From Mesostigma viride (Eukaryota > Streptophyta > Mesostigmatophyceae > Mesostigmatales > Mesostigmataceae): a stretch of 64,000 nt of DNA. Positions 35,405 to 59,890 of this stretch are shown here, one piece after another (the first letter of the stretch is position 1; each line of letters starts with the position of its first letter). The notes under the pieces were generated by a model that saw only the letters and a list, made by a program, of their open reading frames with translations, did not search any database and was not told the DNA's origin. The stretch spans positions 927,510-991,509 of the forward strand of contig RPFO01000595.1 in the NCBI GenBank assembly GCA_009746045.1, written 5' to 3'. The position numbers and the translations under genes were made by a program.

Positions 35405-35409
35405 GGGAG
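35405..35409 (+). repeat. Target-site duplicate GGGAG, left of the outer LTR element
   Basis: The same five bases follow the other LTR at 53488-53492, fixing both outer boundaries of the element. Confidence 0.85.
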
Positions 35410-35638
35410 AGTTGAGTAACTCTAGAGCCCTAGGATCTGGCTCTAAGTTCCCCATGTCCGTCCGCACGCCTTCCGCTAGCGTGCGCTAAGCCGCCGGCTA
35501 TAATCCGGCGGTCCGATGCGGTCGACCGGTCTAAGGGCGGCGCCTAGGGTCGGCGCCACCTAGGCCCCAGTCCGGGGCCTTATCCGGGTCGGTACGGACA
35601 GCTAGCCTGTCCCACGGTTACGGCTTACCGGATAGGCT
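35410..35638 (+). repeat. 5' LTR of outer element, first part
   Basis: Matches 53141-53369 with one substitution. It includes a cluster of strong hairpins: CCGCCGG/CCGGCGG around CTATAAT (about 35491), GGCGCC/GGCGCC (about 35539-35558) and GGACAG/CTGTCC (about 35595-35612). Interrupted after GGATAGGCT by the 3.4 kb insertion. Confidence 0.88.
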
Positions 35639-38600
35639 CACATCACCTAAAAATGGCCTTTTTTGTTACATGGGGTCATATCTCCCACACACATAGTCAG
35701 ATCGGGGTGCCTTTCTGGACTTAAGGTCCCCCTAGGACCCTGTTCACATCACATAAATTGGGGGGCCAACTGAACTAGTTTTAGCATCAAACCGTGACGT
35801 GGAAAAGTGCAAAATACGATGTTTTCCAGGCATAAGGAGGCATAGCAGCCACACACAAGTAGTAAATGTAGTCCAATTCAGCTGGAAATGGTCATGCTTA
35901 TTAATTTACATCCAAAGACAAAGGCCGCCCTTAAGTATGCAATGTAGGACCAAACTATGTGCTATAATTCTGGCATACATGAGCCAAAACACCGTTTTAG
36001 TGCATTATTTTCAAACTTATGAAGCCCCTGCCAGCACATATATGTGGCCCAATCATGCCAGAATTCGTCACATTAATAGCACAATACTTGAATTTACACT
36101 AGAACACAAGTTGGACATATTAGGACCACTGCCGGCCCACTTAAAGTGACGGATGCAAGCAGAAATAGAGCGATTTTTGCCAAAATACTCCATATTCTGC
36201 GCCATTGTCTCGTAAAACTTTGCATTCTTCACTCAATTATCGTCATGGCTGTCATGGGATTCATATACATGCCACTGGGGCTGGATACATTAGCCAACAC
36301 AGACTAAAAAAGCGATCTTCAAGGGAAAAAATCACCATCAATCACAGTAGATGCTGGCATTCGGAACAAGCACCGTAGTGCCTACAAGCCTCAAAAGGGG
36401 AGCTTGGCTGACCAGTCGTGCCTGTCGGCTGACCAGTCTCTTTTCTAAACGGGCCCCGCTCGGCAGCACACACAATCTCCTTTGCAGTACTTGGCCCACT
36501 CTGCTGGGCACCCCTGCTGTGCGTGTCTTATAGCAGCTAATCCAAATATATATCTGCCAGGTGCCTCTCTGCTACATGGAAATACAAAGCGCAATCAAGG
36601 ACAGCAGTGGCTTGGGCTGCTATTCGATTGAGCTCAGCACCTAGCTGCTGTGCAACATGATTCTGCATCAGTGCCTGTCCTAATTGCGCCCCCCCGCCCC
36701 CTTGCCATCATCGTCATGCTCATCATAGTCTTTGGAACGTGCACTGAACTCCAACCCTTGGACAGTCCATAGGTCATTAAGAATCTGTGCATGTAATGCT
36801 AGCTCTTCTCAGTTGAACTCATCTACCACCCTCTCATGGTCGTGTCATCTCTCATGTAATCCACCTAGGTTTATCGTGGCCACTGATCTTTCAGCCCCTC
36901 CTGACATCAAAATCTGGGCAAACACACTGTTGACATCGCCCTTCCTTTTTAGCCTGCATGGCTCCTCATGTTTACCCTTATCTCATCCCTCAACACACCT
37001 AGAACTGTCTATTCATCCCCCTTGCATAGGCGGTGCATAACTGCGGCGTGATGGGGGATTGCCAAAAATAGGTGTAAAATGCATGGGATGGCACGGGGAG
37101 GCTCACACTCATCTTTACAATCACACTCATGTGCTAACAATGTCCCTCTCTGCTTTTGACACTGCATGCACATGCATTTCCTACCGGCTATATCAAGCCT
37201 TTAGTGTGGTTTGGTGCATCAAGAGACATGGCAGGTCAGCTGAGTGCATCAGACCACATTTGTGTTAAGTGTACGCTTGCAACGCTGTTTGCCCACCGCA
37301 TGGAGCTCCCCTTTCGGACAGTGGCACAAGTAGCACTTACACCTTACTCCCAGCCGCTCACCCTGCCCATGCTAGCAACAAGAACAAATGCATGGTCCCC
37401 ATCCCAACGTAAGGTGCATCACATTGATGGCCCTGCCATCACCTAGCAGTGTGCCACCCCTCTCCACCTCAACCTACTCTGAAAGGCCAGGGCCCCAACA
37501 AACCTTTCAAGACATGGCACTCCTCAAAGAAGGCAACCCCTCAAAGAAGGCGAGGCAGTTTAGGTCTAGGGGGGCTTTGGGTAAGTTAAAAGATGATAGA
37601 GTTCACTAACACAGGCCACGGCAACGACAACCTGCTTCACCCGCTGCATCCATACATCACAAGCCATAAACTGCACAGCCTGGCATGATTGCCTAAGGGT
37701 CACGTGATCCAAGATGCCCTTCAGGCTCACCCCAGCACACCGGCCCATCCTCACCACCCCACTGGTCATAGTCATCTACAGTGGCATCAAACTCCTCTAG
37801 GACAGAGTGCAGTAAAGGCAACATAGACGTCCTGACACAATTGAATAAGAACGTGGCTGCTACCTACTGCCCTTAAAAAAAATGTCGATTGCTTGCACAC
37901 ATACGCATTCAATTCTTCAAGCAAGCATGCTAACACCTTCACAGCACATCCCAAGGTTGACATCCATCGAGCTTTGTCAACAAGCATGACTTCCTGATGC
38001 AAACTTAGCTGTCAAGCTAGGAGGAGGAAAGCTAGGTAAAGAGGTGAGATAGACCCCCCCACAGCACCTTCCTGCACCAAAACCATGACAATATCATCCA
38101 GAGCTTGCTAAATACGTACAGCTAACCGGTAGCGGGCGACCTTGCAGTCCAGGTTCAGCGCGAACATCTCGTGTCAGCACCCGGCGGAGATGGCGGACGC
38201 GAACCCACAATGCTTTAAAAGCGAGTCATAAGACTATTTCGGGGAGCGGTGAACGGCTTGGAACACCGAAGGTATGCCGCGACAAAAGCCTGAAGTTTTT
38301 CTCGGAAATACACGCCTGGATGTGGATAAGGGCACCGTTGTCGTGCTTGTGCTTGCGTTGCGAGCAGGCAACCAGTGTTTCTTGCAGTGTCGAGCAGTAA
38401 CAGATGGTGGCGCGAGAGCAATATGTGACTTTTAAATCATGGCTACACAGCTTACACCTCCGCAGGCATGTTGGAACAAGCCCCGCCATGCCGTGAGCCG
38501 AAAAAAAGGAAGAAACGCATCAAGCAAGGACGGTCGTAAACGTCACTGAAAAACAGCAAAATCTGACCTGCCGGCAGGTAATGCGACAGCCTGGAAAATG

Positions 38601-39035
38601 TGATTCGTTTCTCGAAAAACTGATTAGCGCTCGTGAAAGTAGACTTGAAGCCCATTCGGATTCGACCTTTTGGGAATTGTGAGCTTCCAACAAAAAAGTT
38701 TCCCCCACAATTAATAAACATGCATTTTCGCTGCCAATTCCAGATCTGGCCGACACAAAAAAACAGCGTCTCAGTTTGCGAATTATTTTGACGCATGAAC
38801 ATACGCGAATAATATCTACCATGCATCGTCGCAAAGCAGGAGAGTTTACGCGTCGTTTGCATCCATCGCAGCGACTTAACATGCATAATTGACTTATGAC
38901 TGATATTCCGGCGGACATAGGGTCGACAGCCATGCGAGGTGGAATTTTTCTGGTCCCGTCGTCCTCAACGCGACGCGTTCGCGCCAAAATTCCCAGGATC
39001 TCATGTAACCGGACGGACCGATTTTAGGTGATGTG
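35639..39035. mobile_element. 3.4 kb inverted-repeat element inserted in the 5' LTR
   Basis: Starts CACATCACCTAAAA and ends TTTTAGGTGATGTG, a perfect 14-bp inverted repeat. Weaker similarity continues to about 40 bp (GTTACATGGGGTC against GTTACATGAGATC). The intact 3' LTR shows the uninterrupted site GGATAGGCTTTGCTGG, so the boundaries are exact. At most one T is duplicated. The interior has no recognisable transposase and only short frames, so it is non-autonomous or badly decayed. Superfamily not determined. Confidence 0.8.
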
Positions 39036-39154
39036 TTTGCTGGCTAAGACATAAACCAGTGGTTGGCCAGCTCCGACAGCAGTTCTCTGTGTTCACCTTA
39101 TCCCAAGCTCAACGTGACCGACCGCCATAGCTCAGCCGGTCGGGGGCTTTAACT
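39036..39154 (+). repeat. 5' LTR of outer element, second part
   Basis: Matches 53370-53487. Contains a 7-bp stem CCGACCG/CGGTCGG enclosing TAGCTCAGCCGG, a sequence that fits the tRNA A-box consensus. Ends AACT next to the gag leader. Confidence 0.88.
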
Positions 39155-39173
39155 TGTATTCATAAAAATCCCG

Positions 39174-39978
39174 ATGGCTTCCGGTACACGGAGCCGCACG
39201 GGCGAACACACAGATACGCCAAGTGGCGAGGCCGCAGGGACTGTCCTGCCACGCTTTAGTGCGGACGAGGCCACGAGGTTGATGCAAACCCTCGTGGCGC
39301 AACCTGAACTGGCCAAGCAGTTCAAGCATTTGATGCTTGCTGCTGACGATGCACTGAATCGCGGCCCTCTGAAGCAAACGGAGGTGCCCGCTGATCTACC
39401 TGCCGACTATACGGCGGGGCGACGCAGCAGATTTTCTGGCTGCTCTCAAGCGTCTGCGCGATGGACGCGCGGACAAAGATTCGGAGCTGATTGGTAAGTT
39501 CCGTGCAGTATTCTGCAGTACAACCAAGCACCCAAACATTGCCAATCTAGTTCGCATTGCGGACGACAACAAACAAACCTGGGAAGTTTTTTACAACGGT
39601 CTAGATGCCCACTTGTCGCGGTCTAAGGAAGAGGCCGACGAGCAAGCCTTCAACGACTTCGAGGGCTATGCAGTTAATAAGGCAAATTTGCCCGGGGCTG
39701 CACGTGATTTCCAGGTCTTCGTGCACAAGCACAAGCTGCTAGATACTCTCAAGCCCATTTTCCTGTGCAATCGATTTCTCAAGAAATGCGACCTGTCGTC
39801 GGATGTGCATCTGACCATAGCGACGGAACTCAAAAAGAAGAGTGCTGTCAGTTTCGACGAGGGCATGCTGTATTTGATCTCATGCTTCAAGAGTGCGCAG
39901 TCCAAGCCCACTGCCTCGGCCGCTCTGCCATCCCTGCGCAAGGTGGATACCGGCGCGTCTTCTTCTTCAGGCGCATAG
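39174..39978 (+). pseudogene. Outer element gag
   Basis: Starts MASGTRSRTGEHTD, breaks with a frameshift near 39405, and continues in another frame as FRAVFCSTTKHPNIANLVRI, DEQAFNDFEGYAVNKANLPG and YLISCFKSAQSK. The content is mainly helical and resembles the capsid region of LTR-element gag proteins, without recognisable sequence identity to named families. The next segment, in a third frame, carries the zinc knuckles. Confidence 0.65.
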
Positions 39979-40089
39979 GCTCCAATTACGCGGTCGGAGC
40001 TTACGGCCATCCTGAAAAAGGTCGTCGGCCACGGCAACAACGGGGGCCAGCAGGGGCGCAAGCGCAGGCATGGTGGCGACGCCAAGCAG

Positions 40090-40801
40090 GGTGATAATGC
40101 CCCGGCCAAGCGGCAGCAGGGGGCGTCTACCATGACCGCAAGCAACGCTGTGAGCGCTGCTTCGGACGTCGCCATGTCCGGGATGACTGCCGAGTTCGCC
40201 CGGACCTGGAGCTCGAGGACAACCTATGCCGCAAGTGCCACGACGTTCTGCGTGGTCACAGCGTGGAGGCGTGCAAGGCCAAGCGCATCGTCGTCCACGG
40301 CACACGCGAGGAGTGGGCAGAGCGACGGGCAGCACGAAAGTCAGGTGAGAGCACGCTCGATACCCCTTCTTTTGCTCCATGTGTCACGCTGAACCGGGCC
40401 GTCGTAGAGCCTGACGTCGTTCCTAAAAGCAACGTGACTGCATCCCCTGTCTCATTCCGTGATGTGCTCACACAATCCGTTGATGCTGCTCTGGCACTGT
40501 CGCGCCAGGATCACGTGCTTACTGAGCACGGATCTACAATGCGTGACCTAAGCAATGTGGTGCCTTCTAGGTCGGGTGTGTACAACGCCGAGCGACCAAG
40601 CACTACTGCAGCACCCCAGCTAGATACTGGGGCGGTTGGGCGTATGAGGAATGTTGAGACAGTGCAAGAGAATGCTGGGCGGGCAGATGTTCTCGGTACA
40701 CACCACCCTAGTGTGGATCTTCACATTGGCAAGGTGCTCACACGGGCGGCCTTTCGTGCAGCCTCTGAAGCTGCACAGTTAGCCAATGTCACTACCCATC
40801 C
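40090..40801 (+). pseudogene. Outer element gag C-terminus with zinc knuckles, and linker
   Basis: Encodes CERCFGRRHVRDDC, a perfect C-x2-C-x4-H-x4-C nucleic-acid-binding knuckle. CRKCHDVLRGHSVEAC follows, a variant with six residues before His. Then comes a linker of about 150 residues to the stop at 40803. No protease motif is present here, where canonical Copia elements carry one. Confidence 0.7.
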
Positions 40802-40869
40802 GTAGTCACCCCATCTGTTGAGAATCCTGACAATGCCACTGCACCTCAGGCTGTCACGCTGAAACTGTT

Positions 40870-41780
40870 AGCATACCAGATGCACCGTGCATACGGGCAT
40901 GAGGCCCAAGCCGAGGTAGAGGGGGCACACATGTTAGGGGCACCTTTATACAACGAGCTGAAGAATGTGCGTGCTCAGTGTCCTGCCTGCATCAAGATCA
41001 GGAAGAAGTCGCGTAGGCGGCATGCCAAGACTCCACCCTTGGAGCGAGGGTACCTTGTGGGGGATGTCATGCACATGGAAGGGGGGAACACCTATTTCAT
41101 AGTCAAGGATAGGTTCAGCAAGGTCACCTACATTGAGCCGCTGCCTCACATGTTTGAGGCTGACCTGCACAGGGCTATCAAGATCAGCCTGGCTTTCTTT
41201 GATCCCATAGTGGAGCTCATGCTAGACCAGCAGTTCCGCTGTGTGCAAGGTTTGCCGGGGATGGAGGCCGTGGTCATCGTGGGGCGTGAGGATCACGGCA
41301 ATATGGGCATGATAGATCGCACTGTAAGCTATGTCAAGACTGTACATGGCAGCCAAGCGACAGGATAACCCACATGGCAAATCCTACACGGCCAAGACGG
41401 CGTGGTGCAAGGAGCTCATGCATGTGTGCAACCATAGGCACGTGCTCGATGTCAAGGGCTTTGGGCTAGTCACGCCTCGGGGGCTGTCAGCGGGCACCTA
41501 CTCACCCGAGGTAGTCGAGGCATACCAACAGCATCTACAGGATACCGCCGCCAAGCTGCGGCTCAAGGATGCCACGCTGCCTGATTTGTCTAGCGCTTTT
41601 GAGGTCGGGCAGTTGGTCATGTTCCACAAGGAGAGCTCGCCCAGCGGCAAACAGGGCACCATGCAGGGGCCTGGGGCCATCACAAAGTTAGACTGGCCGC
41701 TGCGGGTCATAGACATAGAGTGGAATGATCGGGTGTATAGGGTACCATGGGCATCGGTGCCGGCAGGCTATAAGCAAGGG
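40870..41780 (+). pseudogene. Outer element integrase
   Basis: HHCC-type module MHRAYGH...CPACIKI (from 40880). Then the catalytic core with VGDVMHMEGGNTYFIVKDRF and VELMLDQQF, and GMIDRTV, where the last catalytic residue appears as Asp in place of the usual Glu (G-x-x-E-R). A one-base frameshift near 41340 shifts to a C-terminal region (AWCKELMHVCNHRH, FEVGQLVMFHKESS, DRVYRVPWASVPAGYKQGDG). The frame is cut by the nested element at 41786 and resumes in frame at 50256 (MESELAAN). Confidence 0.72.
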
Positions 41781-41785
41781 GATGG
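41781..41785. repeat. Target-site duplicate GATGG of nested element
   Basis: Repeated at 50251-50255 on the other side. Removing the insert and one copy restores the outer reading frame (YKQGDG-MESELA). Confidence 0.88.
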
Positions 41786-42432
41786 AGTTAGACGAACCAG
41801 CCCAGAGCGTGTGAGCTCTTGGTCTTTCACGCAAAGCTTGAGCCAATTGCTGGGGACAGCAACCTTTAGCCCAAACACCAAGCCACACCTTGTTGGTCAC
41901 TTCCACGTTCAAGTGGGCAACCAGAGCGCGTGCTTCCGAGATAGCTTGGCCATCCCCATGACCAAGCTATATGCCTCTTTGTTGCTCCTCGTTCCCATCG
42001 GTGTGACGAGGCATGTTGCAGGCTTGCTAGCAAATCCTCAACGTCCACTGGCATCCTTGCAGAGCCAGGACGAACTGGATTTACCTAGCTACCTGCAACC
42101 TAGGAAGTACAGGACCTGTCACAAGCCTGCAAGGCCTAGTATCCTTGCAGCCTTGTGCCAGTTCCAGCACCCCACCAGTCGCAGGCTGCTGTCCCTCCTG
42201 GTCTACGTGGACTACAGTCACGTGATAGTCAGGCTAAGCCTGTGCAGGCACGGCCTGCCACGTGTCCTGTCCACTACCCCAGAAGGTTGCATCCTCGCCA
42301 ACCGCGGACGGCTAGGACTTCGGGACCTCATATCTTTCTTGTCCCTTGTCTGTTTCAGGCGGTCAGCACGGCGTTGGAAAGGTCTTTCCAAACTGCATCC
42401 ACTTAGCATATTGGTTGCCCAAAATGCTAACT
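41786..42432 (-). repeat. 3' LTR of nested element
   Basis: Near-identical to 49605-50250. Termini AGTTAG and CTAACT form a perfect 6-bp inverted repeat, in place of the usual TG...CA. Confidence 0.9.
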
Positions 42433-42436
42433 CCAA

Positions 42437-42451
42437 CCCTTTCTTCTTTTT
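42437..42451 (-). promoter_or_regulatory. Polypurine tract of nested element
   Basis: AAAAAGAAGAAAGGG on the - strand, four bases (TTGG) before the 3' LTR. This is the expected plus-strand DNA primer. Confidence 0.8.
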
Positions 42452-43433
42452 GGAGCTGGACCAGCTTGAAACAACCTAGCCTAGCTTGTGCCCACTCAGC
42501 CACAGATCGCTTGGTCCCTTGAGGTTGATCAGACCTGTCAGGGCCCAGGTTCCTGCCTTCCTTTTGGGAACACAACATATGTGCCCTTGGAACAGCTTAG
42601 GTATGCTGGCCAGTGAATCAGAGGTCACCCCAGGTTATCCCCTGACCCCTTGGTCAGCTCCCAACCTTTCCTTGGGAACTTGGTGTTGGATTAATGTCAA
42701 GGTACATTACCTAGCTCAATGGCTGGGATTACAGGATGCCAAGAACGTACTATTGTGAGTTCCTGGTCTTTCACAGTTATCACAGGCGCCCGTTCTTATG
42801 GCGCCCGCCTTGGCCAACCTTTCCCTTCTGCTCAAAGAACCCAGGTAGCACCTAGATTAATGCTGTCTCCTTGGGGAGCCCATGTCTTCACTGGGTGTTA
42901 AGCCCAGGAGTCATTCACGCCAGGCTGTGGCTCTGCTGGGGAATTGAACCCCACCCCAACCTCCAGGTTTATAGGTGACCTGGAACTTTCACAAGACAAA
43001 CATGACAACCATGAACAACATGAGAATGACATGATTATGTTTTATTCAAGCATTATATAACCCAGAATGTGGCTCCCTGGCAACCATGTCACATGGTCAC
43101 ACAACCAGGTTCTTTATTAGCAACAGGTTGGAAACAAGCACTAGAAAACATATGTACAGCAACCTGTAAGAACCAGCATTCGGGTTGCCCTTGCATGGCC
43201 TAACTGTTTGAGGCCAAAGGCGTCGACTTAAGTCCTGGCGACTCTTCTGAACCCCATGGGGAGGGCCAGGCATGATTCTCAGCTGGTAGGAGTGACATTC
43301 CACACCAACTCCTGTCCAGGAGGGTGTACCTAACCCTGAAGGACCAGTTGTCAACCAGCAAGCACCAGTCACCACTTGGCACTTTGGTCAAACAACCCAC
43401 CGGGGACACCCAAGCTGAAGCAAGGCCTGGTCT
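42452..43433 (-). other. 3' non-coding region of nested element
   Basis: About 980 bp between the RNase H stop and the polypurine tract. No open frame of note. Confidence 0.6.
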
Positions 43434-46142
43434 CTATGGCCGCCCGTGCAAGGGGTCCATGAGCCCACGGAGCAGGGGGTACTGCCGCTCCGCCTTCTCC
43501 TCCAGCTTGGTGAGGGCATCTGCAGGGTTATCCACACCAGGCACATGTTCAATGTGAGCTAGGTAGGACATCTCCTTGAGCAACAAGTAGTCAAGGTCCC
43601 TGCTCCTGGCTAGCTGCCTGTGCACAAATTGCACCATGCCCATGCTATCAGTCCTCACCAGTGTGTGCAGCTGCAACCTACAGGAAGCCACTTGACATAG
43701 CTGGTAGAAGAGCTCCCTTAAGTAAAGAGCAGTATGCAGCCCTTCACAGATTGCCCTGCACTCAGCAATATCACTGCTGGGTGTAACCCTGTTCTGCAAC
43801 CGACTGTACCAGGTAACAAGTGAGGTGTGATCTTGCTCCAGGGTGACTAATGCTGCTGCCCTGCCCCTGACTTCTGTGACCTTCCTATTGTCCATAGAAC
43901 TGTCCACATAAAGGATCATGTCAAGGGGCTTGTACAAATCCACAGGACCCAGTATAAGAGGGGGAGACATCATGACAGCCTGCACCACACTCTCAGCACC
44001 CACCTCAACCAGCTGGGAATCAGTGAGTCGACTCAAAACCAGCAGGTCAGGGGCACATATACTTGCAAGCCATGCCAGCATGCCCCTGATGGTAGCACAC
44101 CTAGCCTGCGTGATGGGCTCCTGCAATGCATCTACAATCTGCTGTGGGTAGTCCTTACCACCCTCCATCCTGATGAACCACGAGCCCTTGGCTTGGAACA
44201 ACGTAGCCTGCATGCCACAGAAGACCATAGGCTCATTCTCCACCATGTGCTGTATCTTACCCAGCTCAAACCGCTTCTGGATCTTGGCCAAAACAGCCTC
44301 AACCCAGTCTGGTGGACCTATGAGATGCAGGTCATCACCATGCAGTGAGGCAAAGACAGGAAGGCCATTGTGGGACCCTTGGAACAAACAGGGATCCACT
44401 GGAGACACAGAAAACCCACAAGTATTCTTCAAGAATTTCTCTAGGCTCTTTCTCCAGATAATGGGACTGGACCTGAGACCTTCCAACCCTTTCAGAATTC
44501 TCAGGTACCTGGCCTTTATCTCTGCTCTCCATACAGCAGGTACAGTCACAAAGAAAGGAGGGATATCTCTCCAAGTCTGCCTAGCCTGATCTTGGTCACC
44601 CTTGAGAAAAGCCCTCTTGAAATCAATCAGCACAGAGCTATAGGGCACACCCTTGACCAGAAAAGACAGAAATATACACAGCAGAATCCTCCACGTGTCA
44701 TGCAGCATCCCTGGAGTATAGAGCTCCTCATCTAACAACTGGCCAGTGCCATGATACTCGGTTACAACTGGTCTGACATGTGGCACCTGGACACCATCTA
44801 CCTCCTTGAGCTTGAGGACAAACATCAATCTGAGCAGCTGGTGAACTTCTGGCAGCTCATCCACAGGTTCTGCACAGTTGGAAACTATCCACTCATGCCC
44901 AGAAGCAACAAAGCCAAGAGTCCATGCCTTAGCCATCTTGGGGCTTTGCATCATCTCGACTAGCTGGCGCCAGGGAATAGGACTGTGAGCAGCTATCTGA
45001 TACCTGTTTACCCCTAACTGCCGTGGATCAAAGGTGGTTGGGATTATCAACAGGTCCTCAGCTATGGGCTCCTGACCTTGAGGACCCTCAGCTGGCTGAC
45101 TCTTAACAGCCTTCACCGCCACTGCAAGACCCTGGGAATAGTGATATCTTTCAAGGGGGAGGCTGCCCCTGCCTTCTAGTGCCAACTCATCAGAGGTCAA
45201 AGTAACCCCTGGCATGCACAAGAAGTTCTGACCCAGAATGGCAGGCCCCTGATAGCCCTCTACCACACAGAACGTGGTGGGCACCCCTAAGATAGGCACA
45301 CTCACTTCCCCAAGGATCTTCATGGACACCTTTCCTGAGAAATCAGACACAGCAAGGCAACTGGGATGGGACATCTGTAAGCCTACAGCATCCTCTTCCC
45401 TGATGACAGACACCTGTGAGTTGGTATCTACCTCCATTGTAGCTGCCCAGCACGACCCCCACCCCGTGAGCTTGGATACCTTGGGATCATGTTTGCTGCG
45501 CATGAGTGCTCGGATGACGTCCGCCATGAGAGGCCCCCGGGCCTTAGGTGGCTGCCCCGTCCCCTCTGGCCTTGTGACAGTTGCTTCAGCAGCCTCCTGC
45601 TCGTCATCTTCCAGTAGGGACAGACCATCATCCACCACCAGAGGATTGTTAGCTGCTGCTGCCTGGCTCTGGCCTGGCTCCTCAACCCAACTGGGAGGGC
45701 CTGGCCCGTCTGCAGGCCAGATTGCATGTGGCCTTCTCTCCTTGACATGAGCCCAGGACAACCTGTACACGTGCCTTGGATCCTTTTCCAAAGCCACCAG
45801 GCAAGATCTGTTAGCTTCCTCCACACGAGTGACAACCCCATCCTGCCACTTCCCCCGCTTGCCTGGAATAGATGGTTCCTTCCACATCCTGACCTTCAGC
45901 CCCACCTGAGGCCTCAGCACATTCCAGTTCTTGTCCTTACGTCTCAGCTGGGCAAACAGCCTGTCTGCCTTTCTAAGACTGGCCTGCACCACATTCTCAG
46001 GTAGTAAGCTATACTGCAGGGCCAGGGGAGAGACAGCCACACCATCAAAGTAGTAATTAACCCTGTGGTTCAGCTGCTCTTCTATCCCCTTACACCAGGC
46101 TGCCCTCTCTAAGGCAGATGCCACAAGTGGCACTGACTGCTG
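43434..46142 (-). CDS. Nested element: integrase C-terminus, protease, reverse transcriptase, RNase H
   Basis: About 900 codons without a stop. The start is not a real Met start; the frame opens after a TAG at 46145-46143. Order: integrase tail (WCKGIEEQL near residue 13; GKRGKWQDGVVTRV to HVYRLSWAHVKERRP at about 95-150); retropepsin with EVDTNSQVSVI (Asp codon 45428-45426) and AILGQNFL; RT with LIDFKRAFLKGD, GLEGLRSSPIIW and ASLHGDDLHLIG (44336-44331 are the Asp pair); RNase H with LYVDSSMD, SDIAECRAI, VRTDS and GVDNPADALTK. RT and RH are Copia-type. DTN for DTG in the protease and HGDD for YVDD in RT are unusual. Confidence 0.88.
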   Translation of the reverse strand, partial: QQSVPLVASALERAAWCKGIEEQLNHRVNYYFDGVAVSPLALQYSLLPENVVQASLRKADRLFAQLRRKDKNWNVLRPQVGLKVRMWKEPSIPGKRGKWQDGVVTRVEEANRSCLVALEKDPRHVYRLSWAHVKERRPHAIWPADGPGPPSWVEEPGQSQAAAANNPLVVDDGLSLLEDDEQEAAEATVTRPEGTGQPPKARGPLMADVIRALMRSKHDPKVSKLTGWGSCWAATMEVDTNSQVSVIREEDAVGLQMSHPSCLAVSDFSGKVSMKILGEVSVPILGVPTTFCVVEGYQGPAILGQNFLCMPGVTLTSDELALEGRGSLPLERYHYSQGLAVAVKAVKSQPAEGPQGQEPIAEDLLIIPTTFDPRQLGVNRYQIAAHSPIPWRQLVEMMQSPKMAKAWTLGFVASGHEWIVSNCAEPVDELPEVHQLLRLMFVLKLKEVDGVQVPHVRPVVTEYHGTGQLLDEELYTPGMLHDTWRILLCIFLSFLVKGVPYSSVLIDFKRAFLKGDQDQARQTWRDIPPFFVTVPAVWRAEIKARYLRILKGLEGLRSSPIIWRKSLEKFLKNTCGFSVSPVDPCLFQGSHNGLPVFASLHGDDLHLIGPPDWVEAVLAKIQKRFELGKIQHMVENEPMVFCGMQATLFQAKGSWFIRMEGGKDYPQQIVDALQEPITQARCATIRGMLAWLASICAPDLLVLSRLTDSQLVEVGAESVVQAVMMSPPLILGPVDLYKPLDMILYVDSSMDNRKVTEVRGRAAALVTLEQDHTSLVTWYSRLQNRVTPSSDIAECRAICEGLHTALYLRELFYQLCQVASCRLQLHTLVRTDSMGMVQFVHRQLARSRDLDYLLLKEMSYLAHIEHVPGVDNPADALTKLEEKAERQYPLLRGLMDPLHGRP

Positions 46143-46157
46143 CTAGCACCACTGTCT

Positions 46158-46997
46158 TCACTCACGTATGGATCTTTCTACAGCCCCTTGCTGCCCATGA
46201 CTCTCCCTGGGGACTACTACCAGCTTACAAGGCAGCTGGTCCTGATGCTTGAGCAAACAGTCAAACTGCAAGTCTGCCTGCACACTCTTGCATACCCCAA
46301 AGCCTGGGATCAGGGCCTTCATACCCAACAACAAGTGATGCTCCTGCATACCAGGTAGAATGTCTATCAGTCTATATCTACTGAACCTGTCCACCCCCAC
46401 TAATATATACAAGCCCCTGATATGCTGGATATCCATCTGGATGTCGCCACGCTCTCTAGCAGGCTCCCTAGCATGGGACTGGGGTGGGTGAACAGCATTC
46501 TCCTGGCAACCACAGTTCTCAGCAGCAGCCTGGCATGCCTCCCACAAAGGTTCCCTACCTAACTTCCAAGCAAACATTGCTGCCTGCCCAGAATGTCCAA
46601 ACATGTGATGCAACCTATGGCCAGCCTCAGCATAGCTCAGCACTCTCTCAGTACTGACCTGGCGAGACGTCTGAACCGTGTGTGGGGACACATGATCCAC
46701 TCCTGAGGTTCCAGGGCTTCCCTGCAGGCCATCCTGACGCCCCAAGCCAGGCCCTGCACCCTGGACCGCTCCAGGCCCTTCCAGCAAGGTCCTTTGGCCT
46801 CCAGGCCAGCACCTGCTGGAGACCCACCACCTGCATGAGGCATAGGGATTCAGCTGCAGCATTGTTATTGCAATCCAGTGGAAGAACAACATCCTTACAC
46901 CCTTGGTGCTGCACAAGGGGCACACCCCCATCCTTATGTACATCAGCACACCTTCCCCAAGGGGTGATTGACTATTTACAGGGGATGATGTAGCTAG
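46158..46997 (-). CDS. Nested element: integrase zinc-binding and catalytic core
   Basis: Same frame as gag, separated from it only by TGA. The C-terminal 160 residues hold an HHCC-like module (HRLHHMFGHSG...CQAAAENCGCQ), then DIQMDIQHIRGLYILVGVDRFS (first Asp), VQADLQFD (second Asp) and ESHGQQGAVERS (catalytic Glu). The N-terminal ~100 residues look unlike a protein domain in this frame and read more naturally in the other frames, so small frameshifts are possible there. It ends at TGA (46160-46158); a TAG follows in frame at 46145-46143 before the protease/RT frame. Confidence 0.75.
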   Translation of the reverse strand, partial: LATSSPVNSQSPLGEGVLMYIRMGVCPLCSTKGVRMLFFHWIAITMLQLNPYASCRWWVSSRCWPGGQRTLLEGPGAVQGAGPGLGRQDGLQGSPGTSGVDHVSPHTVQTSRQVSTERVLSYAEAGHRLHHMFGHSGQAAMFAWKLGREPLWEACQAAAENCGCQENAVHPPQSHAREPARERGDIQMDIQHIRGLYILVGVDRFSRYRLIDILPGMQEHHLLLGMKALIPGFGVCKSVQADLQFDCLLKHQDQLPCKLVVVPRESHGQQGAVERSIRE

Positions 46998-48383
46998 TCA
47001 CTGCTGCCCAGACTGGCCCCCTGCCCCAGCAGGCTTGGCCTTCCTGTCAGGGCACTCACGACGCCAGTGACCTTCCTTGCCACACACAAAGCATGCTCCA
47101 CCCTTCTTTCCAGACCCAGCCCCACCCTTGCCAGGCTTCCCCTGGCCTCCCTGAGGCTGCCCACCCTGCTTGCCCTGATTGCCTTGAGCTTGGCTCTTGC
47201 CTTGCCCTTGGCCACCCTTGCCCTGCTGACCACCAGCTTGCTGGCTCCCAACCCCTCCTTGGGAACCTGCACCCTTGCCACCCTGAGCCCCATTCCTCTG
47301 GCGCCTGAAGCGCCTACGCTTGTTAGGCCTTGCCCCACCACGGGCTGGGTACCCGGGGACATCACCTTGGGCCTGTGCAGCGGAGGTGGCATTGCTGCCG
47401 TGGGACTGAATGGCTTTGCAGGCAGGGTCTGGCTTCCTGATACTAAGGATAACCAGCTCTAGAGCACGCAAGGTCCCATCTGTCTGGTTCAGAAACATGC
47501 GGGCACTGTTCCTCCCATCCACACTCAACCCCATTCGGTCCAGGAAATAGTCTGCCAAGGCTCTATCTGTGACCAGGAAGCCATACTTGGCCCCCTTGTC
47601 TCTGATACGGTTGAGCCTGGCCCACTCCTCTGCAACAGGGCCAATGATCTCGAACGTGTCATACTGGTGTTTATAGTAGTTTGTGAGGTTCAAAACCTTG
47701 TCTGAAAACTCCTCCCTCAGTCCATCCAGGAACTGTGCCCAGGTTAGCTTGTCCTTCACAGCCACCCTAGTCTTCTCACGCACACGTTCAGAGGAATCCC
47801 GGTTGCATGTTGAGGAATGAAAGACTTGCACCAGATTCACGGTGGGATCCACAGAGAGCACCACCAGCTCCATGTCCTCAAGCCATTTATCTAGTGCTTC
47901 CTGCGCTAATGGTGGACAGAGAGGCTTTTGGCCATTCATGACGGACACGGCGCTCATGTGAGGCCTCGACCCCGGTAACGCCCTAACTGTCTCAGCCACA
48001 GGGGGCGTCACAGCAGCGACACCAGTCACAGCGGGCGTCACAGTTACGACACCACTTGGGCCAGCAGGGTTGGGGGAGGGCACGTCTACATGACGACGCT
48101 TACCATTATCGTCAGAGGACAAGTCCCTCTTACGTTTCTCCAGCGTTGGTTGTCCGCCAGCCACCAGCACAGCATCTGAAGGCCACTCCGCCCGCGCCCG
48201 CTTGGCCTCCTCCATCGCCTCCTCATGTTTGCGCTTGCCTCCCGGCCTCTTGCTCCCGTCACCGTTGCTAGCAGGGATTGCTTCCCCCGCCATGGGCTCC
48301 TTCTCCTTTCGCACCACCTGGCCCGTTTCCACAGGCCTCTCCTCCTCGCCTTTGTCGCCGTCGCCGGCCTTCCCACGAGGCAT
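46998..48383 (-). CDS. Nested element gag with zinc knuckle
   Basis: Starts at MPRGKAGDGDKGEEERP (48383), ends at TGA (47000-46998). The N-terminal third is charged with KKR-type basic clusters. The middle is helical (EALDKWLEDMELVVLSVDPT, WAQFLDGLREEFSDKVLN). The Gly/Gln-rich C-terminus carries CFVCGKEGHWRREC, a perfect C-x2-C-x4-H-x4-C knuckle. No protease motif lies between the knuckle and the stop. Confidence 0.85.
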   Translation of the reverse strand: MPRGKAGDGDKGEEERPVETGQVVRKEKEPMAGEAIPASNGDGSKRPGGKRKHEEAMEEAKRARAEWPSDAVLVAGGQPTLEKRKRDLSSDDNGKRRHVDVPSPNPAGPSGVVTVTPAVTGVAAVTPPVAETVRALPGSRPHMSAVSVMNGQKPLCPPLAQEALDKWLEDMELVVLSVDPTVNLVQVFHSSTCNRDSSERVREKTRVAVKDKLTWAQFLDGLREEFSDKVLNLTNYYKHQYDTFEIIGPVAEEWARLNRIRDKGAKYGFLVTDRALADYFLDRMGLSVDGRNSARMFLNQTDGTLRALELVILSIRKPDPACKAIQSHGSNATSAAQAQGDVPGYPARGGARPNKRRRFRRQRNGAQGGKGAGSQGGVGSQQAGGQQGKGGQGQGKSQAQGNQGKQGGQPQGGQGKPGKGGAGSGKKGGACFVCGKEGHWRRECPDRKAKPAGAGGQSGQQ

Positions 48384-48441
48384 TATATTATGTACAAAGC
48401 GACACTGCAACACGCAAGGGTATGCAAAAGAAGACAGGACT

Positions 48442-49577
48442 TCAAGCGTCGGGCAGCTCCTCTGCCTCGCGCTCTGCCTCAGCGGCGGCTTCTCTCTCCC
48501 GCTCTTCAGCAGTGACAGCCACCGGCGTCCTCACCCGAGGAATAGCTCGCACCTCCTCCTCAGAATAAGGTCCAAGAAGGCGACTGACGGGCCTCCCGTC
48601 TGTGGTTTGGTCAAACGGCACACTCCTCTCGTTAGGGCGCCTGCCCCACACCACGTTACGCACCCAGCGTCCTCCCCACCTCGTCGCTCGTTGTATGCCC
48701 CAAGGCCGTAGGTGCTGTAGTCGTGCAACGGCTCCGGCGGGATGTGATAATCTGCACGTTGCCGCTCGGAGAACCCTGCTGCAGAACCGTCTCCCTCGTC
48801 CAACTGCTGGGACGAGCGTACAATAACACCCGACGGGCGGTCGACGAACTCGTCGTGCACTGCCTGTGGGACAGCTCCCGACCTGTGACGATTTCCACCG
48901 ACGGACCGTATGCACCGGGGGCTCCAACAACACGAGGGTGTCTAATGTGGACCAGATGCCGGCAGGACGCGTGGTGATAAGCCACCGATCTGCGTGGCCT
49001 CGCGACTCTTGAAGCAAAATGTTAACAAGGTGCTCACAGGTTTGAGCAACTACTTCTTGCGAGGACCAGGGGCTGTCCTGCTCACGCACCTGCGCGTCAC
49101 GCACGAGATGTGAAGCGTTCGTCCCTTCACCGAGGGAACTCGTCGCGACCCAATGGTTAAATAATCGGGTGGCACCAAGGCTGATGGCGACTAACTGTCC
49201 CAACGCCTCTCGAGCAAGATCCAAACCGTGCAGCGTAACGTGACCACCTTGATAGGCGATCTCAAGGCTGTAGATAAGCGCTGCGACCTCGTCTCTCAGC
49301 GCAATCAAGCGCTCCACCGTCACACGACTCGTCTCCCCCGGAGAAGTCGTGGCCCGCACACGCATCACAACAGGGTCGTTGGCAGACGGCCCTTCCGAGT
49401 TGCCGAAAACAGCTACCCAGCCTCCCCGCGCCAAGCCCTCGCCAAATGCGCAGCTTGTACAAACGTGGACGCGGTTTCTGGCTGGCTGTATGGATGCAGA
49501 GGTCCTTCTGCCTCCTGCCGCGGCACTGCGGCTCCTTGGCTTGGCGATTGCTCAAGCGCCGGAATTTCTTCCGACAT
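48442..49577 (-). CDS. Nested element: extra ORF upstream of gag
   Basis: Begins at MSEEIPALEQSPSQG (49577), 27 bp inside the 5' LTR boundary, and shifts frame near 49425 into a 330-codon frame (VAVFGNSEGPSAND..., RLIALRDEVAALIYSLEIAYQ, ALGQLVAISLGATRLFNHWV). The last third is Arg-rich with a low-complexity EEREREAAAEAEREAEELP tail. I recognise no domain. It ends 59 bp before the gag Met. It could be an accessory protein, a gag N-terminal module or a captured host sequence. Confidence 0.5.
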
Positions 49578-49578
49578 G

Positions 49579-49596
49579 AAATGCGCCACGGAACCA
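49579..49596 (-). promoter_or_regulatory. Candidate primer-binding site of nested element
   Basis: TGGTTCCGTGGCGCAT begins with TGG eight bases inside the 5' LTR, as expected for pairing with a tRNA 3' CCA end. I cannot name the tRNA, and the spacing is longer than usual. Confidence 0.35.
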
Positions 49597-49604
49597 ATAG
49601 TACG

Positions 49605-50250
49605 AGTTAGACGAAACCAGCCCAGAGCGTGTGAGCTCTTGGTCTTTCACGCAAAGCTTGAGCCAATTGCTGGGACAGCAATCCTTAGCCCAAACACCAA
49701 GCCACACCTTGTTGGTCACTTCCACGTTCAAGTGGGCAACCAGAGCGCGTGCTTCCGAGATAGCTTGGCCATCCCCATGACCAAGCTATATGCCTCTTTG
49801 TTGCTCCTCGTTCCCATCGGTGTGACGAGGCATGTTGCAGGCTTGCTAGCAAATCCTCAACGTCCACTGGCATCCTTGCAGAGCCAGGACGAACTGGATT
49901 TACCTAGCTACCTGCAACCTAGGAAGTACAGGACCTGTCACAAGCCTGCAAGGCCTAGTATCCTTGCAGCCTTGTGCCAGTTCCAGCACCCCACCAGTCG
50001 CAGGCTGCTGTCCCTCCTGGTCTACGTGGACTACAGTCACGTGATAGTCAGGCTAAGCCTGTGCAGGCACGGCCTGCCACGTGTCCTGTCCACTACCCAG
50101 AAGGTTGCACCCTCGCTGACCGCGGACGGCTAGGACTTCGGGACCTCATATCTTTCTTGTCCCTTGTCTGTTTCAGGCGGTCAGCACGGCGTTGGAAAGG
50201 TCTTTCCAAACTGCATCCACTTAGCATATTGGTTGCCCAAAATGCTAACT
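49605..50250 (-). repeat. 5' LTR of nested element
   Basis: 646 bp, about 99 percent identical to 41786-42432. Followed by the GATGG duplicate and the resumed outer element. Confidence 0.9.
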
Positions 50251-50255
50251 GATGG

Positions 50256-50965
50256 CATGGAGAGTGAGCTGGCAGCCAACAGGGCACTGGGGTGCATGGT
50301 AGTGAAGGATAATGCGCCTGTCGTAGCATCTGAGGTGGTACCCCACGGGTCGCTCCCAGGGGCAGACACAGCTACACCCCCCCCCTCCCCTGGGCCCCAA
50401 TATGACCCCGTGGATGGGTGGGATGAGGATGGGGTGGGTTTGACGGGGGCCTAGTGCACGTAGTGACTCACCTCCTGTGCTAGCCACGGATAATGTGGGA
50501 GGCCCGCCTAGTAGCGTGGCCTCGCCGGAGGGTCAGGGTCCTGCCCATGCGCCTCGCCCACCTAGGGACCTGGCTTCAACGGTCACGGCCTTGTGGCGTG
50601 CTCAGGCGCTTAAAGCGAAAGCTGCATCAGGGGTGGCTCAGGTCAAAACTCTCTCACAGGGGGTCAGGCCGGTTAAGTCAGCCTTGTTTCCTACGTGTAG
50701 ACCGTGGCAGCTAGTGGCTGTGGACACGCAAGCATCCGTGTCTATTATCTCTCGTCGGGCGGCCACCCTGTATCCAGTGCTAGAGTCGCCGTACAAATCA
50801 GTGACCGACTTTGCAGGCACTTCGGCATATCAAGTTACCGGGATGGTGGTGCTGCCGGTGTTGGGCATTGACACGCCATTTCACGTCGTGGATGGCTACG
50901 AGGATGTGGCCTTGCTGGGCGAACCTTTCGTATCATACCCAGGGTTCTCAGTGTCCACTGCATGA
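50256..50965 (+). pseudogene. Outer element: linker and retropepsin after integrase
   Basis: The frame resumes after the nested insertion with an acidic/Pro-rich linker (stop at 50452). After a one-base shift it encodes WQLVAVDTQASVSIISRRAA (Asp codon 50723-50725), YQVTGMVVLPVLGIDTPF and DVALLGEPFV. That is a retropepsin fold pattern: D-T-x-A-S-V-S-x-I, a flap-like middle and a final L-L-G. The Gly of DTG is Gln. As in the nested element it lies after integrase. Confidence 0.78.
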
Positions 50966-52752
50966 CTTGATGTCGGTCGCGGGGGTGGGCAGCATCCCGC
51001 TTCGCGAGTACCATGCTCCATTGGGGGTGGTGGTAGGGCAGCCCGGCGTCGTGCGGCGCTTACCGATGGCGGCGTTTTCCACACCGCCGCTCCTCCAGTC
51101 CATCATTCAGCCTCAGGATTGGCACCCGCGCAGCTCGAACGGCCTCCACTCACACTCACTGGCGGCGGATAGCCCTGTGACGTGGGAGCAACTTGTCCTG
51201 GACTGTCAAGATCCTCTCAAGTTTGCTTCGTGGCGCGACGCGTTCATTCGAGCCAAGGAGCAGTGGCGAGAGCGCGAGGTCTACCGAGGATTGGAGAGTG
51301 TGCCAGCCGGGGCCACGCGGTTGCGGTTGAAGTTCGTGCTCACCTACAAGCCGGAAAAGACCAACTCTTCGGTGGTGTTCCGGGTTAGGCCCGTGGTCAC
51401 GGAGACGAAGGGGTCCTCCCCGCTGGATGCCAAGGATCTTTATACCCCTGGGCTCAACCAATGATGTTTCGCATCGGCTACTGACGGTCATCTACTTGGG
51501 CAAGCGGAACGCGGGCAAGGACTACGGGATGTGGTGCGGTGACTTTCAGCGGGCATTCCTTCACAGCGACGCTGGGGTCGCGCAGCAAACATGGCAAGGC
51601 ACCGTACCCGCTACGTGGTGAAGGTCCCGGTGGTCTGGCTGGCAGGATGGCACCATTGGCAGCGAGTATATCGAGCTGTTTACAGGGGTGGAGGGGCTGC
51701 AGAGCTCTCCCATCATCTTCCGCATTTCCGCGGAGGAGGTCTTGCAGAGCTTAGGGGCCACGTACCATCGCGCTGATCCTAACTTCTTTGTGGTCCCCAC
51801 CGGCGTCCCTGGCGAGCCCGCCCTCTTCGTGTGGCATGGCGATGACTTCAAGCTGGTGGCACCTCGCACATTTGCTTCCCAGTATCTTGCTGCAGTGGCG
51901 GCTAAGTTTCCCCTGGGCAGGGCGGTGGATCATGAGGAGGGTAAACCCGTGGTGTTTTGCGGCGTGCAGTCTACGTTGCAGCGGGATTCGTGTTCTGGCG
52001 AATGGGTCATGCACATGCAGGATAGCCGCAACTATGTGGTTGACCTGCTGGCCGACTTCCCGTCCCCGCTGTTGGCAACCCATGGGCCCTCGGTTAAGGG
52101 CAAGCTCGGGTGGTTGGCGGACACGGTGGCACCTGATTTGGCAGTGCTCGCTCGCCTGCCCGATGATGTGCTGGAAGGACTCGGGTCCATTCATGTTTGG
52201 CGGCAGCTGGCCATGACGCCCGGCATTGTGCTTCGTGGGCTCGATTGCTCACAGCCGGTGCACCTCGAGATAGTGACGGATGCTAATCTAGAGACGCGCA
52301 CAGTCAGCCAAGTGCGGGCCCGCATGGGGGCACTGTTCTTTATCAGAAATGAGGGCCAGCCTGGCATGTTGTTAGATTGGTACTCGCGCCTGCACAGCCG
52401 CATTGCCACTAGCCCCAACACGGCTGAATGCCGGGGCATTGTTTCAGCTATCTCACATGGCATGTGGCTGCGGTACTTGCTGGGTTGGGTATTTGGCTCG
52501 TGTGGGTTCACTCTTCACTGGACTAGCACGGTGCACACTGACTCACAAAGTTGTTTGGCCTTCCTTGACAATCCCTATGCGCGGTCACAGGACGTTGATT
52601 ACCTCGTACTCGCTGAGGCGGCCTCCTGCGTCACGCGTCTCCAGCACATCGCGGATGAACTCAATCCCGCGGATGCACTCACCAAGGAGGCGCGGGAGGC
52701 TGCCCCGCAGTACGCAGTGTTGCGCAAGCGCATGACGATGCAACACACGTGA
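50966..52752 (+). pseudogene. Outer element: reverse transcriptase and RNase H
   Basis: Blocks: RLRLKFVLTYKPEKTNSSVVF (two parts) and RVRPVVTETKG, then LYTPGLNQ, GDFQRAFLHSD, GLQSSPIIFR, LFVWHGDDFKLVA (Asp pair 51841-51846) and KGKLGWLADTVAPDLAVL. The RNase H region has EIVTDANLETRT, WYSRLHSRI, NTAECRGI, VHTDSQSCLAF, RSQDVDYLVLAE and DELNPADALTKE. Frameshifts near 51460 and 51650 break the RT, but the last 354 codons (51688-52752) are open. Ends at TGA 52750-52752. Confidence 0.85.
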
Positions 52753-53140
52753 GCCACACAGGGTTACGGCTCGGGCGCTTTATGAATACAGCCATAACTC
52801 ACCCTGTGTTGCTAGCATTCACGAGTATCTTGGTGGTAGTTTTTTTTTGCTTGTCCTCGGACCATACCCTAGCCACGTTGGACGGTGCCTTGGGCTCGTC
52901 GGCGGGTCACTGGTCCTAATAAATGGGTCACCTTTTGTCTGGTGGCATAATAGTTGTTTTTTTTCTCGATACTTCTTACATCACTATTCATGTGTGATCA
53001 CAAGGGCGCGGGTCGATACCGTGGTGATTTTGACGGCCTTGTTGAGGCCCCCTTGTGTTGCCTACCTTAGAGGGTTTTGTATGGTCTGCATTTGATGTAA
53101 TTTTTTTGATAATTAATCAAAGAACAAAAGAGTATGTCGG
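52753..53140 (+). other. 3' non-coding region of outer element
   Basis: T-rich sequence. AAAGAACAAAAGAG at 53119-53132 is a weak polypurine-tract candidate eight bases before the 3' LTR. Confidence 0.5.
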
Positions 53141-53487
53141 AGTTGAGTAACTCTAGAGCCCTAGGATCTGGCTCTAAGTTCCCCATGTCCGTCCGCACGC
53201 CTTCCGCTAGCGTCCGCTAAGCCGCCGGCTATAATCCGGCGGTCCGATGCGGTCGACCGGTCTAAGGGCGGCGCCTAGGGTCGGCGCCACCTAGGCCCCA
53301 GTCCGGGGCCTTATCCGGGTCGGTACGGACAGCTAGCCTGTCCCACGGTTACGGCTTACCGGATAGGCTTTGCTGGCTAAGACATAAACCAGTGGTTGGC
53401 CAGCTCCGACAGCAGTTCTCTGTGTTCACCTTATCCCAAGCTCAACGTGACCGACCGCCATAGCTCAGCCGGTCGGGGGCTTAAACT
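53141..53487 (+). repeat. 3' LTR of outer element, intact
   Basis: 347 bp, AGTTGAG...AAACT, followed by GGGAG (53488-53492). It is the reference for the interrupted 5' LTR and carries the same hairpin cluster. Confidence 0.9.
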
Positions 53488-53492
53488 GGGAG

Positions 53493-56174: not shown

Positions 56175-56280
56175 TGCCTAAACGCACGCCGCCATGGGCA
56201 CCTTCGCTAGGGGTGCGCGCTCCGGGCACACATTATACACGGTACAGACGGTACCACGATTTTTTTGGCGCAGAAAATAT
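56175..56280 (+). repeat. Solo end of the DNA transposon family
   Basis: Shares GCCGCCATGGGCACC..GGGGTGCGCGC, ACGGTACAGACGGTACC and TTTTTTTGGCGC with 54352-54478. It is truncated at GCCGTCC next to the LINE-A fragment. Confidence 0.65.
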
Positions 56281-56284
56281 TCGC

Positions 56285-57180
56285 CGTCCTGGTAAACGTA
56301 CCATTCAATCTGGACCTTAGATGTTCAGTAAGTGTCCAGGCTTCTGCCTCATTCGTCAGAACAGTAAGAACAAGGGCCTTGATAAGATCCCGTTTCCGGC
56401 CAGCGCCTGGGTCCTTCGCGTGCCGCACTCTGTCTGATTTTCGCAAAGCCGTCCACGCAAGACCTATGCGTGTATCGATGTCATCCTTGGTGTTTGGAAG
56501 CCAACTGCCCAAGAGCTTAAAATGCTCGGTGTAGAACCGCTGTGCCATCCAGGTGTAATAGCGGTGGGGGGCGACCGTTAAGGCCCAGGGCCATTGTTTC
56601 AGTCTTCTTGCTGATTTCCAGGCCAACTGCTCGTGCTTCCAGGGCCAGGCAGTCCAACCAGAGCTGGACATGCTCGGTATCCTCGATGAGACTGGTATCA
56701 TCGGTGTAGATCAATTCTGCCAGGCGGTATTCCGTCCCATCGGCATTGCCACCCGGCGTGCTGGGGTCGTTGTGCATGACCAGGCCAGGCGCATGCCCTA
56801 CACCATTGGCGAAGCGGGCGCGCGCCTTGCGCATGACCTAGTCCACGACAACGATGAACAGGTATGGTGACAGAACACAACCTTGCCACCCCTGTTTGGA
56901 GGGGAAAGGGCGGGCGGTGCCATACGACGTACGGACTGATGCCGTAGACCCCCTCATACAACTTGCGGAGGGCAGCAACCAACGGCTTGGGAACCCGGTA
57001 GAGAGCAAGTATATTCCAAAGGGCAGGCCAGAATACTGAGTCAAAGGCCTCGACATGATCCACGAAGACCAAGTGAACAGGGTACTCACCCGGGCTCAGC
57101 TGCCGCACTTCCTCCACAAGCCGGCGTGCAGCCAAGACTGCCAAAATAGTATTACGGCCACAATTAGGTTGCATGCCAAT
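56285..57180 (-). pseudogene. LINE-A fragment with RT core
   Basis: Encodes MQPNCGRNTILAVLAARRLV, LVFVDHVEAFDSVFWPALWN, VLSPYLFIVVVD, LIYTDDTSLIEDT (YTDD for YADD), LDCLALEARAVGLEIS, FKLLGSWLPNTKDDIDTRI and AEAWTLTEHL. Several frameshifts. Truncated at both ends and not followed by the LINE-A 3' tail. It lies in the 3' flank of cyclase copy B. Confidence 0.75.
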
Positions 57181-57203
57181 CTCATCTCATCAGTCAGTCT
57201 GTT

Positions 57204-58086: not shown

Positions 58087-58575
58087 CTGCAGGGCGTGGG
58101 TGGGGCGCGTACAAAGTCATGTGCGTGTTTGGGGAGGTGTGTGGGGGGGATGCGTGGTAATTCATAGGAAAGCACATGCAGGCGCCACGGAATAAGAAGA
58201 AGAATCAAGAAGAAATCGGAGTTGAAAATAGGGTCGAAAAAACGCGAATGGAAAACCCGTTTGGGGCACAAACACACCATATGCAATGGTGATCCACAGA
58301 AATACCTTGATAGAATCAAGGCAACGGATAGCTCGATGACCATTGAACTCCTGTTTTTTACGGGTAGGTTGGAAGTTGAACTGGTCTTCATAGGTAGGTC
58401 CCAGCATCCTGCGGTGGCTGACATAGTAGAGATGGTACAGGGTACGTAACAGTATACTACTATGCGGGTATGGAAGATAGCGAAAGGCCAAGCCTGGAGG
58501 TTGGCTTTAGCCGGTCTCGTGGGATACCGCGGTACTAGCTGGGGTGGCACTAGCAGCGAGGACTTGAAGACTTAC
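58087..58575 (-). other. Intron of cyclase copy B
   Basis: 489 bp, bounded by GTAAGT and CCTGCAG. No coding or repeat content seen. Confidence 0.6.
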
Positions 58576-59760: not shown

Positions 59761-59774
59761 ATAATAATCATCAC

Positions 59775-59822: not shown

Positions 59823-59890
59823 GTAAATAATAGCAATAATAAAATAACAATAACAATTACAACAATTACAAAGTGCAGGGGCTCATTTAC

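Follow-up and report, generated by a model that had tools for sequence, protein, structure and literature searches.

In Ty1/Copia elements, the domains of the long terminal repeat (LTR) retrotransposon follow the canonical order GAG-PR-INT-RT-RH (protease, integrase, reverse transcriptase and RNase H after Gag), and in Ty3/Gypsy elements the order is GAG-PR-RT-RH-INT. PR, RT and RH are contiguous in Ty3/Gypsy elements, retroviruses and Caulimoviridae, with INT placed after RH or absent. Relative to the PR-RT-RH unit, INT stands either after it (Gypsy, retroviruses) or inside it (Copia). A 64,000-nucleotide stretch of contig RPFO01000595.1 (the window, meaning the whole of the DNA analysed) holds an outer element on the + strand and, nested within it on the - strand, a second element, and in both of them INT comes before PR-RT-RH. 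This is a third placement of INT relative to the unit, and the elements are a variant form of LTR retrotransposon. Both are very probably LTR retrotransposons of one diverged Copia-like lineage, with a Pol of INT-PR-RT-RH instead of PR-INT-RT-RH.

Domain order in the two elements and in a separate relative

Both elements have two direct LTRs, a target site duplication (TSD) and gag and pol between the repeats. Self-comparison and inspection of the ends place the outer element at 35410-53487 (+ strand); its LTRs (348 bp at the 5' end, 347 bp at the 3' end, termini AGTT...AACT) differ by two substitutions and one gap column at the insertion point, and the TSD GGGAG is intact on both sides. The extent of 39174-52752 in the initial annotation has to be replaced: position 39174 is the ATG of gag, and an insertion at 35639-39035 interrupts the 5' LTR. 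The nested element, delimited in the same way, occupies 41786-50250 (- strand), with LTRs of 647 and 646 bp (termini AGTTAG...CTAACT) that differ by five substitutions and three single-base homopolymer gaps, and with an intact TSD, GATGG, on both sides. It is inserted between the outer INT and the outer PR, and because GATGG is duplicated on both sides of it, these two flanks were contiguous before the insertion. Both insertions appear to be young. A primer-binding site was sought by eye in the LTR/flank alignment of both elements, and none was recognised.

The order in the nested element is INT (~46640-45735, in two open reading frames, ORFs), PR (with a DTN motif whose codons start at 45428) and RT-RH (44990-43503); in the outer element it is INT (40775-41759), PR (DTQ at ~50723) and RT-RH (within 50964-52749). 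Both motifs had been placed correctly in the initial annotation, after INT and before RT-RH, and its reading of Gag-INT-PR-RT-RH in both elements is borne out by tblastn with an independent protein, by Pfam, by profiles and by predicted folds. This protein, P0001, 1214 aa long and from an ENA source whose longest contig has 6224 bp, has an unbroken frame, lies on a contig separate from the window and has the same order, INT-PR-RT-RH. By tblastn it aligns to the nested element over 1132 columns at 46% identity, with the same succession of domains, and 439 of 917 positions (48%) are identical to the nested 902-aa ORF. Its matches to the outer element are more diverged: INT (40775-41693) at 27-30%, PR (50660-50998) at 31%, the pre-RT stretch (50964-51455) at 35% and RT-RH (51475-52734) at 34%. 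A further relative, P0002 (jgi/Mesvir1), covers INT and the linker (156/221 residues, 71%, identical to the nested element) and stops short of PR; from beyond residue 514 the model aligns to 43522-43409 instead, close to the end of RH, a jump that is either a deletion or a predicted splice. P0012, which the window itself encodes, and P0004, P0007 and P0010, which are 99-100% identical to the nested element, were excluded as independent elements.

The outer copy has frame breaks in gag, the pre-INT linker, INT, PR-RT and RT, the nested copy in the pre-INT linker and at the junction of the INT ORF with the 902-aa ORF, and some of these may be assembly errors. It is scarcely credible that the order itself is a local artefact of chimeric assembly or of recombination between nested copies, as might be suspected from two nested elements in one window, the frame breaks and the three homopolymer gap columns between the nested LTRs, which suggest assembly errors: P0001 has the order in one uninterrupted frame on its own contig, the TSDs are intact, and the nested 902-aa ORF (46142-43434) runs without a break from the INT C-terminus through linker, PR and RT to RH.

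The two window elements are only 34% identical in RT-RH and 35% (28/79) in PR. The RT-RH divergence, together with P0001, upholds the earlier view that both families inherited the order from an ancestor, as opposed to a local rearrangement, and because three diverged elements share INT-PR-RT-RH, one ancestral change is the simplest origin. The order would have arisen once, by recombination in the ancestor of all three, either with INT moving to the Gag/PR junction or with duplication of a PR-INT segment and subsequent loss of the first PR and the second INT.

Integrase and the domain that follows it

The domain before PR is predicted to be a retroviral-type integrase, with an HHCC region and an RNase-H-like core. 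The best 50 Foldseek matches listed for the predicted P0002 fold are all retroviral integrases (best E 1.6e-11). D/D/E motifs are present in the INT of the nested element, P0001 and P0002; the outer copy has D,D,D, with an Asp (GMIDRTV, 41300-41323) where its relatives carry the catalytic Glu (AVERSI, LVERTI), perhaps as a result of decay. Matches to Pfam rve are weak (E 0.05 for the nested INT, 0.15 for P0001, 0.051 for P0002), with none for the outer INT, and NCBIfam gives weak IS481-transposase matches for P0001 and P0002 only and none for the nested ORF. The match of the INT profile to a conventional Copia protein, P0014, is not convincing (score 0.9, E 0.01, ~20 residues aligned).

The segment after INT has the retropepsin fold in its predicted structure. 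Pfam gag-asp_proteas (PF13975) matches it in three of three members, weakly in each (best E 0.0026), and the best four of five matches of the PR profile to PDB sequences are retroviral-like aspartic protease 1 (E 0.43-0.49). When the predicted PR structure is compared with the PDB, the best 50 matches listed per comparison are retroviral or Ddi1 proteases only. In a viral structure library, 316 entries match at E 10 or better and none of them reaches 0.001; the list is headed by a fragment from equine infectious anaemia virus and an aspartyl protease from a bracovirus (E 2.4e-3 and 3.7e-3), with mixed rows below. The PR-RT-RH profile (A3) has no match to PDB sequences up to E 10, and the nested ORF alone matches only unrelated PDB chains (E 0.95 or worse). 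Between the nested element and P0001, the PR core is conserved beyond chance, because 52% of its residues are identical (41/79) against 34% (25/74) in the preceding linker and 29% (19/65) in the following spacer. That the segment is some other all-beta linker domain resembling a protease is very improbable, since profile, Pfam and structure agree on one family and Asp-Thr and LG lie at matching positions. Recognition of the DTN/DTQ segment as a retropepsin, a check fixed beforehand, is thus supported by the Pfam, profile and fold matches.

The D-[ST]-G triplet of retropepsins is absent from this domain. DTN or DTQ stands in every full-length PR found (nested, outer, P0001 and P0010), with D and T kept and G replaced, and the domain could be a degenerate retropepsin fold without catalytic function, retained for structural reasons, with cleavage by an undetected protease or a host enzyme. 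The region upstream of INT bears on this reading. Four ORFs of gag, linker and INT match no protease family in Pfam (E up to 10). The nested leader-gag-linker (3004 nt, three frames) contains no D[ST]G; the outer pre-INT stretch (1716 nt) contains two, LDTGAV and VDTGAS, neither with a downstream LG motif, and P0002 has one, VDSGSQ, before INT. The retropepsin pattern was written after the motifs were known; its two hits therefore do not count as independent evidence, and only the lack of upstream hits is informative. In the P0002 structure model (6 sequences; mean predicted local distance difference test score, pLDDT, 51), residues 1-127 have pLDDT <50 and no secondary structure.

Several points weigh against an active protease after INT, among them the glycine-free triplets and the upstream D[ST]G triplets of the outer element and P0002; low pLDDT from the shallow P0002 alignment is not proof of disorder, and the comparison with P0001 was made without its gag. 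A degenerate domain is nevertheless unlikely: elements that share 30-35% of their PR residues still retain the catalytic D and T and the ILG/LLG motif, the upstream triplets lack conservation (P0001 and the nested element have none before INT), the pre-INT region of P0002 is predicted to be unfolded, and the upstream ORFs scanned hold no protease family. The initial annotation's claim that no second protease lies upstream of INT, likewise put to a check set in advance, survives the ORF scans, the D[ST]G search and the P0002 model. The idea that the upstream triplets are relics of a lost first protease is speculation; the triplets are not conserved.

Kinship, Gag-Pol expression and other features

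The RT of the lineage matches RVT_2, the Copia RT family, always below the cut-off (nested ORF 1e-4, P0004 2.3e-4, P0005 1.9e-4, P0009 3e-7, P0001 0.014), and the outer RT ORFs and P0003 match neither RVT_2 nor any other Pfam family. RVT_1 is not listed for RT sequences of the lineage in Pfam scans at E 1 and E 10. The RT-RH profile matches P0014 at E 2.6e-9 in a single comparison. HGDD is found in all seven RTs that cover the site (nested, outer, P0001, P0003, P0004, P0005 and P0009), of which P0004 belongs to the nested family itself; P0014 has YVDD. INT precedes RT in both window elements and in P0001, which does not fit Ty3/Gypsy. Judged by its sequence, the lineage probably works like a Copia element, its possible membership of Ty1/Copia resting on the RT and RH resemblance; to this extent the label Copia-like can be kept, and the defining order PR-INT-RT-RH is missing, with no PR found before INT.

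A separate, older LTR branch in which INT-PR-RT-RH is the original order is a doubtful alternative to a derived Copia lineage. It would fit the distant Copia likeness of RT-RH (RVT_2 below cut-off, one comparison with P0014), HGDD, the LTR ends AGTT...AACT and the nearness of PR to retroviral-like aspartic protease 1 among PDB sequences; against it, the RT family matched is RVT_2 and not RVT_1, and INT lies upstream of RT, as in Copia. Going beyond the Copia-like reading, it may tentatively be proposed that the elements belong to an ancient, unnamed LTR lineage of family level, with INT before PR-RT-RH, a glycine-free DT[N/Q] retropepsin, an HGDD RT and a Gag-Pol made by UGA-CUAG readthrough.

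The protein P0004 (jgi/Mesvir1) matches 52% of the A3 query with 100% identity, and its label, taken to stand for Mesostigma viride, makes the host probably this streptophyte alga instead of the chlorophyte first assumed. EukProt entries P0005, P0008, P0010 and P0011 match the nested element at 80-99% and carry dinoflagellate labels, Prorocentrum lima (80-87%) and Lingulodinium polyedra (99%), which reflects either library contamination or horizontal transfer. A viral contig collection has no relatives of the nested ORF, P0001 or alignment A2, and a genome contig collection none of alignment A2. The protein searches scored only ~8000 candidates sharing most words, and relatives may have been missed.

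The 3' end of the nested gag reads CAG CAG TGA CTA GCT, and the following ORF, which contains the INT core, continues in this frame; part of the post-gag linker matches P0002 in another frame. TGA-CTA-G is a leaky stop context. Folding analysis gives no support for a structured RNA after the stop (z -0.99; 30 of 200 shuffled sequences fold equally well), and the available text of a readthrough paper does not contain the CUA context (PMC2754532). In the nested family, low-level readthrough of the UGA-CUAG stop perhaps yields Gag-Pol, a Gag-INT-PR-RT-RH polyprotein. The protease would dimerise in the particle, excise itself from between INT and RT and free Gag, INT and RT-RH; RT-RH would then copy the RNA, and INT would insert the DNA, giving the 5-bp target duplications. 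The zinc knuckle claimed for both Gag proteins is recognised in the nested one by Pfam (zf-CCHC); the outer one has a Cys/His cluster identified by eye, where the best Pfam zinc-finger match has E 7.1.

Features of the outer and nested elements (window coordinates)
Feature	Position	Strand	Evidence or remark
TSD GGGAG, left of outer element	35405..35409	+	repeated at 53488-53492
Outer 5' LTR, first part, starts AGTT	35410..35638	+	
Insertion within outer 5' LTR, 3.4 kb	35639..39035	.	14-bp terminal inverted repeats CACATCACCTAAAA
Outer 5' LTR, second part, ends AACT	39036..39154	+	
Outer gag with Cys/His cluster	39174..40330	+	approximate extent; frame breaks; no protease family match
Outer integrase (HH...CC, D...D...D, C-terminal domain), two frames	40775..41759	+	27-33% identical in tblastn to queries P0001, P0002 and nested ORF; rve not matched in Pfam
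TSD GATGG, left of nested element	41781..41785	+	repeated at 50251-50255
Nested 3' LTR (AGTTAG...CTAACT)	41786..42432	-	
Nested RNase H	43503..43928	-	92/142 identical to P0001
Nested reverse transcriptase (HGDD)	44223..44990	-	Pfam RVT_2 E 1e-4, below cut-off
Nested protease core, predicted (DTN at 45428; ILGQNFL)	45207..45446	-	Pfam, profile, predicted fold
Nested integrase, C-terminal part, start of 902-aa ORF 46142-43434	45735..46142	-	alignment to P0001 and P0002
Nested integrase, HHCC and catalytic core	46158..46640	-	rve E 0.05, below cut-off; tblastn; predicted fold of relative P0002
Gag stop TGA in context TGA CTA G	46998..47000	-	in frame with following ORF
Nested gag, 510-aa open frame, CCHC knuckle aa 479-494	46998..48530	-	zf-CCHC E 4.2e-6, above curated Pfam cut-off
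Nested 5' LTR	49605..50250	-	
TSD GATGG, right of nested element	50251..50255	+	repeats 41781-41785
Outer protease, predicted (DTQ, ALLGEPF)	50660..50965	+	tblastn, profile, Pfam
Outer pre-RT stretch, RT (HGDD) and RH, several frames	50964..52749	+	tblastn; no Pfam match on these ORFs
Outer 3' LTR	53141..53487	+	
TSD GGGAG, right of outer element	53488..53492	+	repeats 35405-35409

The 3.4-kb insertion in the outer 5' LTR has perfect terminal inverted repeats, its longest stop-to-stop frames listed from 36000 on are 170 and 167 aa, and it is perhaps a non-autonomous DNA transposon. At the window ends (500-4550 and 58000-60960), self-comparison pairs short segments in inverted orientation and mirrored order (1893-2274 to 60368-59987 at 91%, 3252-3439 to 58810-58623 at 94%, and also 514-602 and 4424-4511); the frames there look cyclase-like by eye, and the ends are perhaps two opposed copies of one gene flanking repeats. 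Frames that by eye resemble fragments of RT of the long interspersed nuclear element (LINE) type lie at 6500-7600, 8560-10750, 28800-30380 and 56200-57190 (e.g. YADDTTLFED), and some of these frames are related to each other in self-comparison. Self-comparison also gives dense matches typical of short tandem repeats at 13440-15010, 21820-22026 and 23985-25810, in related, partly inverted blocks.

Comparison with known systems

The lineage resembles Ty1/Copia in an RT whose only family match, below cut-off, is RVT_2, in RH directly after RT, INT upstream of RT, zinc-finger Gag and 5-bp TSDs, and differs in having PR after INT instead of before it and HGDD instead of the YVDD of P0014. Canonical Copia elements also have a DSG protease triplet, here DT[NQ], and LTRs of the form TG...CA, here AGTT...AACT, and the stop that separates gag from pol in the nested element is a further departure from them. 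Tca2 of Candida albicans is an element that we take to be of Copia type. A UGA separates its gag and pol, as in the nested element, and the flanking sequence alone gave no readthrough in yeast (PMC2194720); the INT-PR order is unmentioned in the available part of that paper.

A changed INT position within an LTR superfamily is described for Gmr1, a Gypsy lineage with a Copia-like INT position (PMC2774666, available part); Gmr1 is Gypsy-type, while here RT is Copia-like and PR follows INT. The SymbioDIRS-Dnmt3 elements of Symbiodinium show distinct, shuffled Pol-domain and integrase orders in one element group, but these belong to the DIRS class and carry a tyrosine recombinase, where LTR elements have a DDE integrase, and the accessible text mentions no retropepsin (PMC5890265). 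The open-licence literature, including that on Copia elements of Mesostigma and dinoflagellates, yielded no description of INT-PR-RT among the papers listed, with subscription papers and Repbase outside the search and a prior description possible; the available parts of PMC2806351 and PMC6952103 hold nothing on this order.

Classifiers using domain order or Pfam cut-offs could miss or misfile such elements, because among the matches listed only the nested zinc knuckle passed its cut-off. The lineage offers a test case for Gag-Pol maturation with a protease between INT and RT, and its conserved DT[N/Q] a natural test of the need for Gly at the third position of the aspartic protease triplet. 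Pol gene order is a main character in defining LTR superfamilies, and a lineage with INT-PR-RT-RH shows this order to be more labile than the definitions assume: PR, RT and RH are contiguous, as in Ty3/Gypsy elements, retroviruses and Caulimoviridae, and INT here comes before PR.

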